DNA of 64,000 nucleotides from Kiritimatiellia bacterium (GTDB lineage: Bacteria > Verrucomicrobiota > Kiritimatiellia > RFP12 > UBA1067): NCBI GenBank assembly GCA_028686345.1, contig JAQUCE010000010.1, positions 1 to 64,000 on the forward strand, in the 5' to 3' direction. Both the position numbers and the translations under genes were made by a program. Shown in pieces: positions 35,132-45,486 of the stretch; within the stretch, counting starts at the first letter, position 1; each line of letters starts with the position of its first letter. The notes below the pieces were generated by a model that worked only from the letters and a program-made list of their open reading frames with translations, made no database searches and had not been told where the DNA came from.

Positions 35132-35461
35132 ATGAATTTTCATTTATATCAGGGAAATTCTTTGGAAGCCCTTGCAATCCAATTGGCAACGCTCCTGAAA
35201 ACCAATCCAGCGGCTGCAGGTGCGCCCGACCCTTTTGCAGCCGAGACAATTGTTATCCCCAACCAAGGTCTGGCCCGCTGGCTCAGCTTGAAGATTGCCG
35301 AAACCAATGACCTCTGTCCAGCCATTGATTTTCCCTGCCCCGGCGCGTTCCTTTACCGCTATGTCTTCAACCCCATGGTGGATGGCACCGAGCCTGTAAC
35401 CGCTGAGGAGGCTGACCTCCCTTTCGCGCCAGCCACAGTGCAATGGCACCTGTTGAAATAG
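35132..35461 (+). pseudogene. recC: recC N-terminal fragment
   Basis: These 109 residues match the start of RecC: FHLYQGNSLEALA, then IVIPNQGLARWLSLKIAE and a FPCPGAFLYRYVF block. RecC is normally about 1,050-1,150 residues, so about 90% is gone. The frame closes at TAG soon after the last RecC-like residues (FAPATVQWHLL). With neither RecC nor RecB intact the locus cannot make RecBCD. It is the first of three adjacent remnants in recC-recB-recD order. Confidence 0.85.
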
Positions 35462-35737
35462 TCACCAAGCACAATGAAGCCAAGTTGCTGCAGCAACAGC
35501 TGCGGCCTCACCTGCCGCACTGGCTATCTCAAAACAGCATGACAAAGAGGCGCTCTCCCCCTCCGAATTCATTACCGTAAAAATGGAGGCTGGCTCTGAG
35601 TCACCCTTTGGCGCAGCTGAAACGATCACCACAACTAAACTTTCACAGGAGGAACTCGGCGCCCAAAAACCGAAATTCAACTACAGCGCAGGCGGCGAAA
35701 AACCGACCCTTGACGAGCCTTTGGAGCCACTGAACTT
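35462..35737 (+). pseudogene. recB: Short debris, probably recB remnant
   Basis: Between the recC and recD remnants only about 275 bases remain where a recB gene of over 3 kb would be expected. One short frame reads VEIVTKHNEAKLLQQQL, which is like the helicase segment that follows the ATPase core in RecB. A second frame reads FNYSAGGEKPTLDEP. Several frames are closed. The recB identity is tentative and rests mostly on position. Confidence 0.4.
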
Positions 35738-36997
35738 CCCTCTGACCTGCTAACTCAGCTTGGCAGCGATGCCTGTGCTGTTTCCAGAGTAGGCGATGGA
35801 GCTTTCAAGCCGCTGATATTGGAGCGAGACCGGATCTACCTGCAACGATACTGGGTCTATGAAAACCAGTGCGCCGAGCAACTGCGTATGCGAGCCGGGA
35901 TTGCGCCGGGAGCCACGCTGGACAGGGCCGCGATCCGCAGCTGCACCAAGCTTGATCTGGACCATGATCAGATCACGGCAATCCAGAGGGCGTTCGCCAA
36001 CCGCCTCTGCATCATCACCGACAGCCCAGGCACAGGCAAGACTACCGTTGTCAGCGTGGTGCTGACCGCCCTGCTGAAGCAGAACCCAAACATGGCCATC
36101 CACCTTTGCGCCCCGACTGGCAAGGCGCAGGCACGGCTCAAAGAGGCCATGCAGGAGCAGATTAAAGGCTCTCTCAAGCTTGCGGATGATGACGATCTGC
36201 GCACTAAATTGGAAAAACTGGAAACCTCAACAATCCACCGCTTACTCAAATTCAACCCCGGCTCGCGTCAATTCACCTATCATGCGGGCAACCCTATCAT
36301 AGCCGACCTTCTGATTGTAGATGAAGTCTCGATGGTTGCGCTGCCGCTCATGGTCAAGCTGCTGTCAGCTTTGCCCGACACCTACGCGGCCTGCGAACAG
36401 AAACTGACAAGTTATCTGGAGGGGCACTCCTTCCGCAATTATCTGGCCGCCACGCATGCAGAGGCGGCCCACACACATTTCGACACCTTCCGCATCCTTT
36501 GCGCAACACGGCAAGGGCCTTGCGGCGTTGAGCATATCAATCAATGTGTGCATAATTTACTCAACATTAAAACCTATGGGCATGGACATCCAATTATGGT
36601 GACTGTCAATGATTACACCCATCGGCTCTTCAACGGAGATAGTGGCATCTGCCTGCGCGATCAGGAGACAGACTCTGTCAAGGTCTGGTTCTCCGACTAT
36701 GAGAGCCCCGATGAATACCGCTCCTTCAGCATTGGTGAGCTGCCTGCGCACACCCCGGTCTTTGCTATGACCGTGCACAAGGCTCAGGGTTCGGGGTTCG
36801 ACGAAGTACTGTTACTACTGCCGCCGCAGGAGAATCGAGTTCTCACCCGCGAACTGATCTACACCGGCGTGACCCGTGCCAAGAAAAAATGCACCCTCTG
36901 GGCAAACAAATCTATCTTTGCCGGTGCCATAGCCCGCCCCACTATCCGCATGTCGGCGCTCCCGGGGACGTGCGCGTTAGCGAATCTAGTCGCCTAA
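35738..36997 (+). pseudogene. recD: recD with internal deletion
   Basis: The open frame reads PSDLLTQLGSDACAVSRVGDGAFKPLIL, then RYWVYENQ and the Walker A block SPGTGKTTVVSVVLTALL. APTGKAQARLKEAM, TIHRLLKF and DLLIVDEVSMVALPLMVKLLSALP follow, all RecD motifs. Straight after that RecD should continue with the GDxxQL motif III and about 80-100 more residues. Instead it jumps to the later region DTYAACEQKL. The final helicase motifs FAMTVHKAQGS and LIYTGVTRAKKK are present. The loss of motif III should abolish helicase activity. The stop is formed inside a repeat fragment (GTCGCCTAA, R1). The ORF track start at 35819 is a TTG within the frame. Confidence 0.8.
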
Positions 36998-37172
36998 GCA
37001 ACTAAGAATAATTCGGCTACGCCGAATTATATGATTCCGCCACGCGGAATAGCGCTGTAGGAGTTTAAGTTTTCAGCCTGGACGAAGACCTACCGCACAT
37101 CACACAAACCCTTTTGGCGTGCCTTTAACGAATTTTTTTGACAGGGGCGCGTTTTTTTGCGATAAGGATTCC
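36998..37172. repeat. Short gap before gntP-like gene
   Basis: It contains an AATTCGGC..GCCGAATT inverted repeat (about 37010-37028), then words of family R6/R4 (ACATCACACAAACCCTTTTGG and GCGTGCCTTTAACGAA). AAGGATTCC before 37173 is the ribosome site of the permease. Confidence 0.55.
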
Positions 37173-38997: not shown

Positions 38998-41900
38998 CTA
39001 GCGCACAATGAAAAGCATACCGATTGCGCCTACGCTGAGATCACCCTCGCCGGTTATCCATTCAGAGTTGAAGGCATTATAGTAGCCGGATTTCATCTTT
39101 TGCCCATCGACATAGAGACTCCCCGCTGCCTGCCTGGCGGCCCCAGCGTCGTTAACTTTGAGCATTGCGCCATTATTGATGCGGATGATCGTCGACTTAT
39201 CCGTTGCAAGGCCTGAGATATCTGTGAGCCCGTTGTTCGCCGTCAGCCGGGAGAATGCTTCACCTTGCATGATCAACACGCCAGGGCCATCTTTGGTCAT
39301 GGAATAGGTTCCGGTGATGGAAGCGAGATAATTGGTTGTCGAAGCACCGACATCCACCGCATTGGCACCGGCAAGCATGGTTTCTGCAAACTTCAATTGT
39401 CCGCCATTAGATGAGCTCAGCTGGAGTTTGGCATCAATCCCGAAGGTACCGGTTGTAATGAGAAAAGGCGCGCCAGCCGAATCGGGCGTATCAAGCATGA
39501 CCGTTTGTGCGGTTGCAGCAGGGAGCTGCAGCTCCTGCAAGACCAGGCGCTCATCCATGACCGGCTCTGACCGGTCATAGGAGATACTCCAGTTGCTGAC
39601 CCAGAGATCAGCAGTTTCTCCGCCAGTCGCGCTCGTCATGGAGGGGTGCGCGTAGTTGCTCTGCGCCTGTGCAGGGATATCAACATCTGTGAAGGTGTAG
39701 GTTCCGGTGATGGTTGAATCAGCGAGATCAGTCATTATCACAGTGACGGTTTTGGTGGCGTAGTTATATCTCACAATGGTGTCAATCGAGCGGTTCCGCA
39801 GTTCAATACAGCTCTGAGCAGAGCCCGCTGTGCTGCCGTTGATTCCGAGACTCAGCCGGCATTCATTATAGATGGAAAACATTATCGCCACGCTCTTGCT
39901 GATGCCATAGGTTGTACCCCGATACCCCAGTGATCCTCCCAAGTCACCGATTGCAAGCGGACCACGCGGATCATTGTGGAATACGAGTGCCCACCCATCA
40001 GCGACGGCGTTAGCAGAGGTGACGCGAAATCCCACAGTAAAATCTTTCGCGACATTGACGCGGCGTTTGCAGGCGATAGCTCCCTTGTAGCTCGCCGTTG
40101 TTCTGCAGATTTTAACACGGCTGTAGGGATCAAAGGTGTTATCTTCCGCGTATCCGATCCACTCTGTACGATTGGCCAGGAAACTGAGCGGTTCGTCGTT
40201 GATCCGCCGCAGCATCAACCCGCCATCGCTCAGACGGATCGTCGAGTTGGTGGGATAATAGTCCAGATCGCCCAGCAGCGCCAAAGGCGCATTGCCCTGC
40301 TTTGTGAGAATTCCGCTGCCATCGTAGCGGTCAAATGCCAGATACGGCGCGCTGTCAATTGGCGGGTGCGCATCAGCTCCTTCTTCAAAAGTAAAGGAGG
40401 TGATTAAGTTTTCAGCCCACGACCCGCCCACACGTCCGCTAAAACCAACGTAAGCCTTTCCATCGGCGGCTGTTGTCAGGTGTTGAGGCTCCACCCCGGT
40501 TACATACCGTTCCAAGACATTCTCGCCCTGCACGGTGCGGACAGTCACCGTCTTTGCGGCAGGGTTATACGAGAGCGTCATGAGCGCGGTTTTGGATGTC
40601 GTGTTGTTGAAAACAAGCGGTGTAAACGGGTTAGCAAGCGCTGTTACCAGATTTGCAGGCTGGCGTTCGATCTCGAGTTTTCTGTTGTTCTTATAGTAGT
40701 TCCAGCGTGTTGACCAGATGCCGCCGTCGGTGACACTCCACGCCGAATTGTAAGTCTTTGCGCCTTGATTTTTAACAGAGAAGCTTAAGTCAAGGCCGAC
40801 ATTCTGCAAGGTGAAGGTCACCCAGTCTGCGGGATCGGTCGATGTTATGCCAATGTCAAAACTGAAGGTTGCCTTCCAGGCATTTGTCACACTCAGGCGT
40901 TCCTTCAGAAAGGCGGCGCCATTACGGTCGCCAGCGGGATAAGAGAGGCGTAGCGCTCCGTTGGGACGCCACTCCGCGTTCCCGTTCAGTTGCCATGCCG
41001 ATTGAGTCGGCACCAGATCAGGGGCGACATCCTCGTAGGCAGGCAGCTCGCTGGAGGAGCTGACTGTAATCGAAGAATCGGTTTCATACGAGAGGGTTGC
41101 CAGACCGAAGCCCTTCTGCGTGGTCGTGCCATTGACCTGTACACGGATATTCCCGTTGGCGGCAGCAACCAAAGTTCCGCTGTATTGACCATAGAACTGA
41201 TGCGAAGCTTTGGTGGAGCCATTATCGAAGACAAAATCATTAATCAGCAGGTGTGCGGTGCTTCCGCCAGTGCCCGCTGTTATACCAACATACGCCCTGG
41301 ATGTTTTGGTGATGTCAGCCAAGTTGACCCCGCTCTTGGTGAAGCTCTCCTTGCGTCCGTCGGCGCGCTTGAGTGTGATTGTAATGGCATTGCTGCCATC
41401 GTAACTCAACGTAATATAGGTTTTCATCGGCATCCCGTCACGCAGCGACATGCTATAAAGGGTTCCGAGCTCTGTAAACTCACCGCCAACACCATCCCCT
41501 CTGCCAAACTTAACTTTGGTAGGCCGGCTGTAGAAATCAAATCCGATTGCGATGGAGTTTGTCAGACCAGTTGCCCCTGCATACCCCAGCTGATGACCGG
41601 ATGCTCCGAGGGCCGTTATGCCGCGTGCATCATTGTGTATGACAAAGGCGAAGCCATCGGCGACAATGGCGCTTCCCATCAAGGTGAAGGAGGCTGTCCA
41701 GGCATTCGTAATCGACTGCTTCTCTTTTAGCATCACACCGCCGGTTTGACTGCCAGCCGTCGTGACGATTTGCATCCAGCCGTCACTCCGAGCAAGCGAT
41801 GCGCCGGCGCCTATACTTTGAAAGCTAGTTTTAGGCCACGAAAGTCCGAAGGGAAAGAGGGCAAGAGAGCCGGCAACCGTGGGTTGTTCGATCCGCTTAT

Positions 41901-44900
41901 TGTGAAAGACACTGCCATAGGCTGTTTCAAGCAAACCGCCGTTCATCGTAATGCTTGAGAGCGGCGTGGCGCTGGGTGCATATGCGTTATAGACCGGCCC
42001 GTAGAGATAAAGCGAGCCAGCGTTTATATTCACATCAATTGCAGCTGGACGGATGCCGAGCAGACCTGGCCCCTTTTTTGTGAAGATCGTGTCAGTTGCA
42101 GTCACTGGAACAAGGACGGCATCTAAACTCGCCCAATAGTCATTACTCGCACACATGCCATCCGGCCCAACATTGATCTGCGGCATTTTATGGAACCACT
42201 GCTGGATGCTGTTGATCCTGCGCGTGGTCAGGGTCGCGCCGTCAAACTCTACGTAGCCCTGGTTGAAATCATTCAGGTTGGCTGTGTCGTTGATGGTGTT
42301 ATTGCCTGTACTCTCGGTTTCCAGGGAGGAGTTGCCGCTCAAAATCAGCTTGCCCGCACGGTGAACAGAGAGGTTGTTCGCGCGTAGAATGCTGTTTGTC
42401 ACGGTAAACAGTGCCTGGCCCCCAGGTGTCTTGGCAATCAAAATGCCATCGCCACCCAAAGCCTGATTGTTTTCCATAACACTGTTGTTTGACATGTTCA
42501 CGATGGAGTAGCCGCCCTTATCTTCGTTGATCAGCGCGGAGTAATTCATGCTCATATACCCATTGTCGATCGTCAGCTTAGGCGTTCCATAGTAGTTGAG
42601 CTGCCCGTCAGCATAAGATAATACAACTCCGTGATCTGTCGTAAACCTGCCACCGTTGATAATAACGAGCTCCGGACTCTGAGGCGCTGTTGTCGTGCCG
42701 GTGCCGCGCCCGACGGTAGTCCAGTTTCCTCCGACAACATTGACTGTGCTGCCATCGACAATCATCTTCGGCGAGCCAGGGTACTTTGTTCCAATGTAAA
42801 CATTCGCCCCCGAGCGAATCGTACTAACCTGGCCGGCTCCGCCATTGAACAGGAGTATGCCGTCTTCTACAACAAAGCTTCCATAGGATACTCCTTGATC
42901 CACTGTTCCGTCAGCTGTATAGCCAGGGGTTGTGCCGCCTGCCACCCCTCTTCCATTGAGAGTCTGAGCTTGATCATAGATCAGCTCAACCCTCCCTGAC
43001 CCGCGCTTAATAACAGGCCTGTATTCGGGAATATCGATCTTTCCCGAGATGGTCAAGGTTGCTGCGGCATCCGTCACATCGATAATTCCATAACGGCTGT
43101 GTTCTGCGGATGAGGTGATGCCCTTTGAAATCTCAGCATCCTCTGAACCGGTATAGCGCAGGGAGCCTTCGCCAAGCAGCACAGTGCTGCTGGCGCCCAG
43201 CGCCGCAACCCGGTCAAACTCGATTGTCCCATAGCTGTTGGTCAACGGCCCGGTAAAGGTGTTGTTGCCCGTCAACCGAGTTGTACCGCCAACATGGGTT
43301 ATGCCGCCACTGCCCGAGATATCCCCTGCAAGCACCAGTGAGTGTCCACTCTTTGATCGCGTAGTTGTCCGCCCTTCAAGCGCTAAAGGCGCACTCACGG
43401 TGTTAGTGTATGCCAACGAGCGAAGCACGCCCCCGGAGGCTAACGTGACCTCGTTTCCTGAAATCCGGGTAACAGCATCACCGAGCAGTATTGACTGCAC
43501 CACCAAACCTGTCAGATCATTGGTGACAGCCTCGCCGCCGTCGCTGAAATCAGCCGTCTTATCCGCGCCATCAGGAATGGTGCCACTCCAGTTCCCGGCT
43601 TCACTCCAGTTACCGCCGCCAGGACCATGCCACACGCTGGATGTTCCCGGCAGATAATCGCTCACCTCTGATTTAAAGATATCGTAAATATCAGCCGCGC
43701 TTTTAGCGCCTGTGGTTACACGCAACTGGCCCACATAGCCCTTAAACGGAGATAGGAACCCGGTGTTCTCCCCGGCTAATTTGGTCGCGCCGAGCACAGC
43801 AAGTGTATCTGAACTGATATTGAGATACGAGAGATACTGCTCGTTCACCTTTACGCCATTGACATAGACGCGCTCAACGCGGCTTGCGTCGCGGGTAAAC
43901 ACAAGATGCTGCCACTGCTCTGGTGGCGGTACAAAAGGCCCCCATCTTAAATTGCCTGTATGATGCTCCAGGGCATTGCCAAGCGTTGCGTCATAACGAA
44001 ATTCCATCAGCGAATTCTGAATGCCTGTCCTGCGGGTCCAGCTGAAATAATCAGCGGTATTCGTAAGGCTTGTCCGCAACACCCAGCTCTCAACCGTCCA
44101 CGTTGTGTTCGGACCAGTCAGTGAATCAGGAATCGTCATGTCGCCCGCCATTACGGTGTTCGATGTGCCATCAAAGTAAAACGCCGGCGCACCCTGATAA
44201 TTTTCAACATATTTCGTGCCCGCACCACTTGCCCAGTTGGTGAAAACACCACCCAGCGTGCCTTGGTTGGCGAGGGAGGTCATCGCGAAACCATCCGCAA
44301 CGCCGGTCACGTCAGCGGCTCTGACCTCCACCAGCTTTGTGCCAGCTGTCGCGACGCTATGATACTGAGCGTGCTCCTCTTGATAATTCGAGATCACCTG
44401 CTCCGCTGTTAATGTTCCGGAGTGAACACGCACCGCGCCAAGATAACCGTTAAACGCAATGTTGTCAAAATCGCTCCCTGCCGTGTTCAGCGTGGAACCA
44501 AGAACCATGCTGCCGCCGCCGTCAATATTCAGATTGCTGCAATCCATGGTGTTCACCAGATAACCATCGCAATAGACGCGCTGGAGCTTATCGGTGCCAC
44601 GCGTGATCGCAACATGATGCCACATGGCGCCGGACGGCTTGGTTCCCCAGGGAAAATTAAATCCACTCCCATAATGCTCCACGCAGTTTCCATCGCTCCC
44701 GTATCGAAACTCAATCAGCACACCCGACGCGCTGCGGCGCTTGGTCCAAGCCATATATTCGTAGCTGCCGGAGCTGAGGTTCGGCTGCATGATCCACACC
44801 TCCATGGACCACACCCCGTTTTGACCTGCAAAACCCGCGGGTGTGCTCGGGCCCACCAGCGCACTGTTGACTGTGCCGTCAAAATAGATTGCCTGCGCTC

Positions 44901-45126
44901 CTTCGACATTGGCCTGGTAAATGGCATTTGTCAGTGTTTTGCCGGCCATGGTGGAAAAATGGCCGAACGATTCATTTCGGTTCGTCCACCTCCCCACTTG
45001 CCCGCCATCACCAAGTGCTGCCATGTCCCGGGCCTGCAAATCCACATAAAGAGTTCCAGCGGATTCAATAGCATGACCTGCACTTACCAACCACGCGCTA
45101 ACCAACACAGCACATAACTTTTTCAT
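38998..45126 (-). CDS. Giant exported LamG / beta-helix / lectin-like surface protein
   Basis: The protein has 2042 residues from the ATG at 45126, where AAGGG precedes it and a signal peptide (about 1-20) starts. Two LamG/concanavalin domains lie at about 20-260 and 265-510, both ending in a short EQVISNYQEE / ADIYDIFKSE helix. A beta-helix with an autotransporter-type repeat motif begins near 515 (WSEAGNWSG, later RLTGNNTFTGPLTN). From about 1120 to 1850 there are three L-type-lectin-like units (GFAFVIHNDARG; DWVTFTLQNVG; GWALVFHNDPRG). The last about 180 residues hold another short beta-helix. No autotransporter barrel, LPXTG or PEP-CTERM end is seen, so anchoring is unknown. Glycan or matrix binding is inferred from the lectin-like folds. 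It stands alone. Confidence 0.72.
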   Translation of the reverse strand: MKKLCAVLVSAWLVSAGHAIESAGTLYVDLQARDMAALGDGGQVGRWTNRNESFGHFSTMAGKTLTNAIYQANVEGAQAIYFDGTVNSALVGPSTPAGFAGQNGVWSMEVWIMQPNLSSGSYEYMAWTKRRSASGVLIEFRYGSDGNCVEHYGSGFNFPWGTKPSGAMWHHVAITRGTDKLQRVYCDGYLVNTMDCSNLNIDGGGSMVLGSTLNTAGSDFDNIAFNGYLGAVRVHSGTLTAEQVISNYQEEHAQYHSVATAGTKLVEVRAADVTGVADGFAMTSLANQGTLGGVFTNWASGAGTKYVENYQGAPAFYFDGTSNTVMAGDMTIPDSLTGPNTTWTVESWVLRTSLTNTADYFSWTRRTGIQNSLMEFRYDATLGNALEHHTGNLRWGPFVPPPEQWQHLVFTRDASRVERVYVNGVKVNEQYLSYLNISSDTLAVLGATKLAGENTGFLSPFKGYVGQLRVTTGAKSAADIYDIFKSEVSDYLPGTSSVWHGPGGGNWSEAGNWSGTIPDGADKTADFSDGGEAVTNDLTGLVVQSILLGDAVTRISGNEVTLASGGVLRSLAYTNTVSAPLALEGRTTTRSKSGHSLVLAGDISGSGGITHVGGTTRLTGNNTFTGPLTNSYGTIEFDRVAALGASSTVLLGEGSLRYTGSEDAEISKGITSSAEHSRYGIIDVTDAAATLTISGKIDIPEYRPVIKRGSGRVELIYDQAQTLNGRGVAGGTTPGYTADGTVDQGVSYGSFVVEDGILLFNGGAGQVSTIRSGANVYIGTKYPGSPKMIVDGSTVNVVGGNWTTVGRGTGTTTAPQSPELVIINGGRFTTDHGVVLSYADGQLNYYGTPKLTIDNGYMSMNYSALINEDKGGYSIVNMSNNSVMENNQALGGDGILIAKTPGGQALFTVTNSILRANNLSVHRAGKLILSGNSSLETESTGNNTINDTANLNDFNQGYVEFDGATLTTRRINSIQQWFHKMPQINVGPDGMCASNDYWASLDAVLVPVTATDTIFTKKGPGLLGIRPAAIDVNINAGSLYLYGPVYNAYAPSATPLSSITMNGGLLETAYGSVFHNKRIEQPTVAGSLALFPFGLSWPKTSFQSIGAGASLARSDGWMQIVTTAGSQTGGVMLKEKQSITNAWTASFTLMGSAIVADGFAFVIHNDARGITALGASGHQLGYAGATGLTNSIAIGFDFYSRPTKVKFGRGDGVGGEFTELGTLYSMSLRDGMPMKTYITLSYDGSNAITITLKRADGRKESFTKSGVNLADITKTSRAYVGITAGTGGSTAHLLINDFVFDNGSTKASHQFYGQYSGTLVAAANGNIRVQVNGTTTQKGFGLATLSYETDSSITVSSSSELPAYEDVAPDLVPTQSAWQLNGNAEWRPNGALRLSYPAGDRNGAAFLKERLSVTNAWKATFSFDIGITSTDPADWVTFTLQNVGLDLSFSVKNQGAKTYNSAWSVTDGGIWSTRWNYYKNNRKLEIERQPANLVTALANPFTPLVFNNTTSKTALMTLSYNPAAKTVTVRTVQGENVLERYVTGVEPQHLTTAADGKAYVGFSGRVGGSWAENLITSFTFEEGADAHPPIDSAPYLAFDRYDGSGILTKQGNAPLALLGDLDYYPTNSTIRLSDGGLMLRRINDEPLSFLANRTEWIGYAEDNTFDPYSRVKICRTTASYKGAIACKRRVNVAKDFTVGFRVTSANAVADGWALVFHNDPRGPLAIGDLGGSLGYRGTTYGISKSVAIMFSIYNECRLSLGINGSTAGSAQSCIELRNRSIDTIVRYNYATKTVTVIMTDLADSTITGTYTFTDVDIPAQAQSNYAHPSMTSATGGETADLWVSNWSISYDRSEPVMDERLVLQELQLPAATAQTVMLDTPDSAGAPFLITTGTFGIDAKLQLSSSNGGQLKFAETMLAGANAVDVGASTTNYLASITGTYSMTKDGPGVLIMQGEAFSRLTANNGLTDISGLATDKSTIIRINNGAMLKVNDAGAARQAAGSLYVDGQKMKSGYYNAFNSEWITGEGDLSVGAIGMLFIVR

Positions 45127-45486
45127 AGCATCTACCCTTGTTTGTCTGTAACTGTTCACGTTTTACGAGCAGGAGCCCTGGAACCCGCCTGTTGTGCACG
45201 AATTCGTAAAGGAGCTGCCGTACTCCAAAAGTATACATAACACCATTCAAGGGTAACCTCGCTTCGCTCGGTGACTTTTTGAAGGATGATTCGCGAAGTT
45301 ACAGCCCTGTATATTTCAAGGGTAACCTCGCTTCGCTCGGTGACTTTTTGAAGGATGATTCGCGAAGTTACAGCCCTGTATATTTACTCAGTAAACCGAG
45401 CGCAGCTACCATCCTACGAACTGCGGACAACTTTACAGCAAAGCATAATCATATGTCAAGACTATTTTTTAAATAATTGTTAAACA
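45127..45486. repeat. Gap with 69-bp tandem duplication
   Basis: Between the giant gene and the transposase lie two perfect 69-bp direct copies (45246-45314 and 45315-45383). Each begins TTCAAGGGTAACCTCGC and holds CGCTTCGCTCGGTGACTTTT. The ORFs in the track here are by-products of the repeat. Confidence 0.85.
45246..45383. repeat. 69-bp tandem duplication
   Basis: There are two exact copies. Each contains CAAGGGTAACCTCG, which also occurs as its reverse complement at 46988-47001 on the other side of the IS91-type transposase. This may mark the edge of the mobile element, or be a host repeat into which it went. Confidence 0.88.

Follow-up and report, generated by a model that had tools for sequence, protein, structure and literature searches.

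We analyzed a stretch of 64,000 nucleotides (referred to here as the window) from a Kiritimatiellia bacterium (GenBank assembly GCA_028686345.1, contig JAQUCE010000010.1, positions 1 to 64,000, forward strand), in which remnants of recC, recB, and recD lie between positions 35132 and 36997. The three remnants follow each other in the normal order and together occupy 1.87 kb, compared with 9.2 kb for an intact operon of the same genome. The locus combines the features that define a recBCD pseudogene (i.e. fragments in their original order and disabling deletions) and, judged by homology, is the remains of a second recBCD copy. The first-pass annotation of the window had described a recBCD locus eroded chiefly by deletions, and this description is borne out. 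The assembly (G000) is a draft of 5.30 Mb in 218 contigs and is 90% complete; statements made below about the whole genome rest on family searches. We also note that, elsewhere in the window, positions 38998-45159 of the minus strand encode a 2053-aa autotransporter-like protein with LamG-like repeats (recognized by eye), which adjoins a gntP-like gene.

The recC relic (35132..35461, plus strand) retains codons 1-109 of about 1080 and ends in a stop created at the joint, so that 90% of a full-length RecC has been lost. The 109-aa fragment, the length of which had been estimated correctly before, matches positions 1-94 of 314 in PF04257 (E 9.7e-18) and positions 1-95 of 1063 in TIGR01450, and is 58.6% identical to RecC of a relative from another genus of the same family (G011) and 46.8% identical to the RecC encoded on contig C124 of its own genome. 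Downstream, on the same strand, two stretches resemble RecB of G041, a second relative from that genus. The first, at 35458..35505, encodes 16 residues (IVTKHNEAKLLQQQLR) that correspond to RecB 560-575 in a local alignment with a score of 38; three of 500 shuffles did as well, so that a scrap of the RecB helicase is only suggested here, although the stretch stands where the gene order predicts. The second, at 35526..35729, aligns with RecB 844-910, the linker between the helicase and nuclease parts, with 37% identity over 68 aa and a score of 100 (best of 500 shuffles, 47). Only linker scraps thus stand in place of the SF1A helicase and the PD-(D/E)XK nuclease; the earlier view that almost nothing of recB is left is right with respect to both catalytic parts but missed the linker remnant of ∼68 residues. 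The sequence TTGAAA at the recC/recB joint could be assigned to either side, and the short direct repeats that the first-pass annotation had proposed to look for were not seen, in that no direct repeat of at least 12 nt bridges the two sides of a joint at this locus. The nearest relatives, at only about 60% identity, are too distant to define the ancestral joints.

The recD relic consists of two blocks on the plus strand, which are fused in frame. The N-terminal block (35732..36373; TIGR01447 profile positions 89-289) contains Walker A through the Walker B sequence DEVSM and lacks the N-terminal domain, and the C-terminal block (36374..36997) covers profile positions 410-593. Together they score 343 bits against TIGR01447, for which the cut-off is 310 bits. 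No stop interrupts the frame for 427 codons, and none of 2000 composition shuffles of a 416-codon stretch of it stayed open. We place the start of the relic near 35732, and not at the TTG at 35819 given in the list of open reading frames, because the frame upstream of that codon aligns with RecD (ELPSDLL versus ELPADLT of G041); the TTG is therefore internal to the homology. About 85-114 residues, counted before the first aligned column, are missing from the N terminus. At the joint, 83-87 residues are gone between LLSAL and PDTYAAC, including GDKDQLAAVE (motif III) and SHRF. Further, Walker A reads DSPGTGKT, as opposed to G(S/G)PGTGKT in intact RecD, and all of the 11 other aligned RecD proteins have the first glycine, which is replaced by aspartate here; altogether, three of 46 otherwise invariant residues are altered. 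The relic thus no longer has the full set of SF1B helicase motifs I-VI. With regard to the first-pass annotation, the loss of motif III and the open frame through the joint stand, but the statement that both end thirds of recD are kept does not, as the N-terminal end is missing.

An open frame of 427 codons with so few of the invariant residues changed could mean that a product has been kept, and a short RecD (392-427 codons) might, on this reasoning, be expressed and modulate the intact enzyme encoded on C124, for example as an accessory or decoy subunit. In-frame starts (TTG at 35819 and ATG at 35888) are present before Walker A, most conserved residues are retained, and the protein has evolved at a near-normal rate: divergence from G011 RecD at codon positions 1, 2, and 3 is 0.30, 0.26, and 0.54, respectively, and the branch leading to the relic in the tree is not longer than those of its sister genes. 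However, neither start is preceded by a clear Shine-Dalgarno sequence (by eye), the Walker A glycine, motif III, and the N-terminal domain are lost, and the remnants of recC and recB beside it are dead. In addition, Walker B and the FRILC block are separated by 51 residues in the window RecD and by 130-198 residues in the 35 homologues whose two RecD blocks could be scored. The short form is unique among the 35 homologues, none of which has the short spacing, and conservation of a 393-residue form in related genomes, which would have spoken for a functional variant, was not found. We therefore consider a kept RecD highly improbable. Third-position divergence well above that at second positions, together with the lack of branch elongation, instead indicates that selection acted on the recD gene throughout most of its past and that the gene probably died only recently.

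The same assembly contains a complete recBCD operon at G000:C124:4377-13601, which encodes RecC, RecB, and RecD of 1078, 1112, and 591 aa, respectively. In profile searches, recC and recD of this operon score 223 and 434 bits; under the NCBIfam models, RecC and RecD exceed their cut-offs and RecB reaches 653 of 696 bits. The tetranucleotide signature of C124 correlates with that of the window at r 0.951 (0.44-0.88 for the loci of relatives), and repeat sequences are common to both, which indicates that C124 very likely derives from the same organism. A tandem repeat array lies upstream of recC on C124 (locus L017, 2752-3564), and an 877-base repeat-bearing gap separates recB from recD (L017, 10949-11825); pieces of this gap recur downstream of the relic, at about 37024-37117 of the window. 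Downstream of the intact operon, at a distance of about 7 kb, we note a type III restriction-modification-like pair (locus L018, 6558-11327) consisting of a 954-aa helicase-like and a 630-aa DNA methyltransferase-like protein, both named by eye.

The relationship of the relic to this operon bears on where the second copy came from. Depending on the block, protein identity of the relic is 44-52% with the C124 copy and 52-64% with G011 and G041; for RecD, the values are 45% and 56-59%, respectively. In a maximum-likelihood tree, the relic, G011, and G041 split from C124 and the rest with a support of 99, and this grouping, with the higher identity, indicates that the relic and C124 copies are separate lineages. 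A recent duplication of the C124 operon followed by decay, as might be supposed from the presence of both copies in one genome and their proximity in the family-level tree, is thus an exceedingly improbable origin of the locus. One of the two operons would have been either acquired via transfer or retained after an older duplication. We note that recC is patchy among the relatives: it occurs in 10 of 41 genomes, and only G000 has two matches. The same-genus genomes G001 and G002 lack recC and share the rny-ymdB-xseA-xseB-ppiC genes; they carry other genes downstream and, therefore, do not show the ancestral state. No closer copy of the relic was found in a scan of genome contigs. In G011 (contig C152, locus L087, 8769-10812), the gene ahead of recD is not recB; a 104-aa frame stands there instead, which resembles (by eye) the beginning of a large restriction enzyme, so that this operon, too, has either been rearranged or lies on a misjoined contig.

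A 218-contig draft of a genome with two recBCD operons and many repeats also raises the concern that the assembler collapsed a true intact recBCD at the window site. We consider this very unlikely for the following reasons. First, at 44-52% protein identity, the assembler could not have confused the relic with the C124 copy. Second, several independent joints, one pair of them in frame, are clustered in 1.9 kb of sequence away from the ends of a 69-kb contig. Third, recC, recD, and PDDEXK_1 searches of the other contigs revealed no further pieces of the relic version: besides RecD2-type helicases, only C124 and the relic itself were found.

The first-pass annotation had argued that a cell lacking a further recBCD copy would have to repair double-strand breaks through AddAB or RecFOR, and had proposed a genome search for addAB or another recBCD. 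Such a search yields the full recBCD on C124; the premise is thus false, and there is no basis for a forced switch to either pathway. An AddAB-type nuclease did not turn up in the family search of the genome, in which the only PDDEXK_1 match is RecB of C124. A UvrD_C match in a 1738-aa protein on contig C40 (locus L019, 1367-6583) was rejected as AddA, as it belongs to a RecQ-UvrD type fusion, i.e. a single chain of an N-terminal region, a RecQ-type helicase, and a UvrD-type helicase. Both recO and recR were found; no RecF above the cut-off was found in the genome, and the best RecF match, on contig C160, was rejected because its score is under the cut-off, its frame resembling another AAA-type ATPase (by eye). 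The suggested tie between a loss of RecBCD and the repeat-rich gaps and IS elements likewise has no ground, since the C124 operon is intact.

Compared with the RecBCD enzyme (exonuclease V; RecC, TIGR01450; RecB, TIGR00609; RecD, TIGR01447), the relic has the same recC-recB-recD order and domain matches, and its surviving parts keep conserved RecD helicase motifs; it differs in that deletions have removed the greater part of RecC and RecB as well as essential parts of RecD. The losses in RecC, the RecB helicase and nuclease, the RecD N terminus, and motif III are incompatible with a RecBCD enzyme, which cannot form from what is left. We found no literature on this locus; the papers found cover the distribution of RecBCD and AddAB and the decay of redundant genes in general. 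One example is Wolbachia ruvA, which was neutralised as a pseudogene of a redundant recombination gene (PMC4224334). In both cases, of two recombination functions that overlap, one is kept and the other decays; unlike ruvA, the relic has a diverged version of its own complex as the redundant partner and has decayed via deletion, not point change. By its sequence, the window locus is a redundant operon reduced to an ordinary pseudogene relic.

Overall, we conclude that the locus is, with high probability, the dead remnant of a second recBCD operon, one diverged from the C124 copy, which is being lost by stepwise deletion as redundant. The genome would formerly have held two RecBCD operons of one family-level clade, of which the C124 copy stayed intact and is predicted to supply exonuclease V-type end processing, presumably thereby making the window copy redundant. 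Several deletions would have removed about 7 kb from the latter, namely in the recC-recB span, within recB, at the recB-recD junction, and, in frame, across 83-87 codons of recD; the order of these events and the lack of function in the relic are what we infer from the remnants. Thus, this genome appears to have had two diverged recBCD operons and to be losing one of them, which is of little importance beyond annotation. It does, however, serve as a warning that a broken local copy is no basis for inferring a missing repair pathway without a search of the remaining genome.
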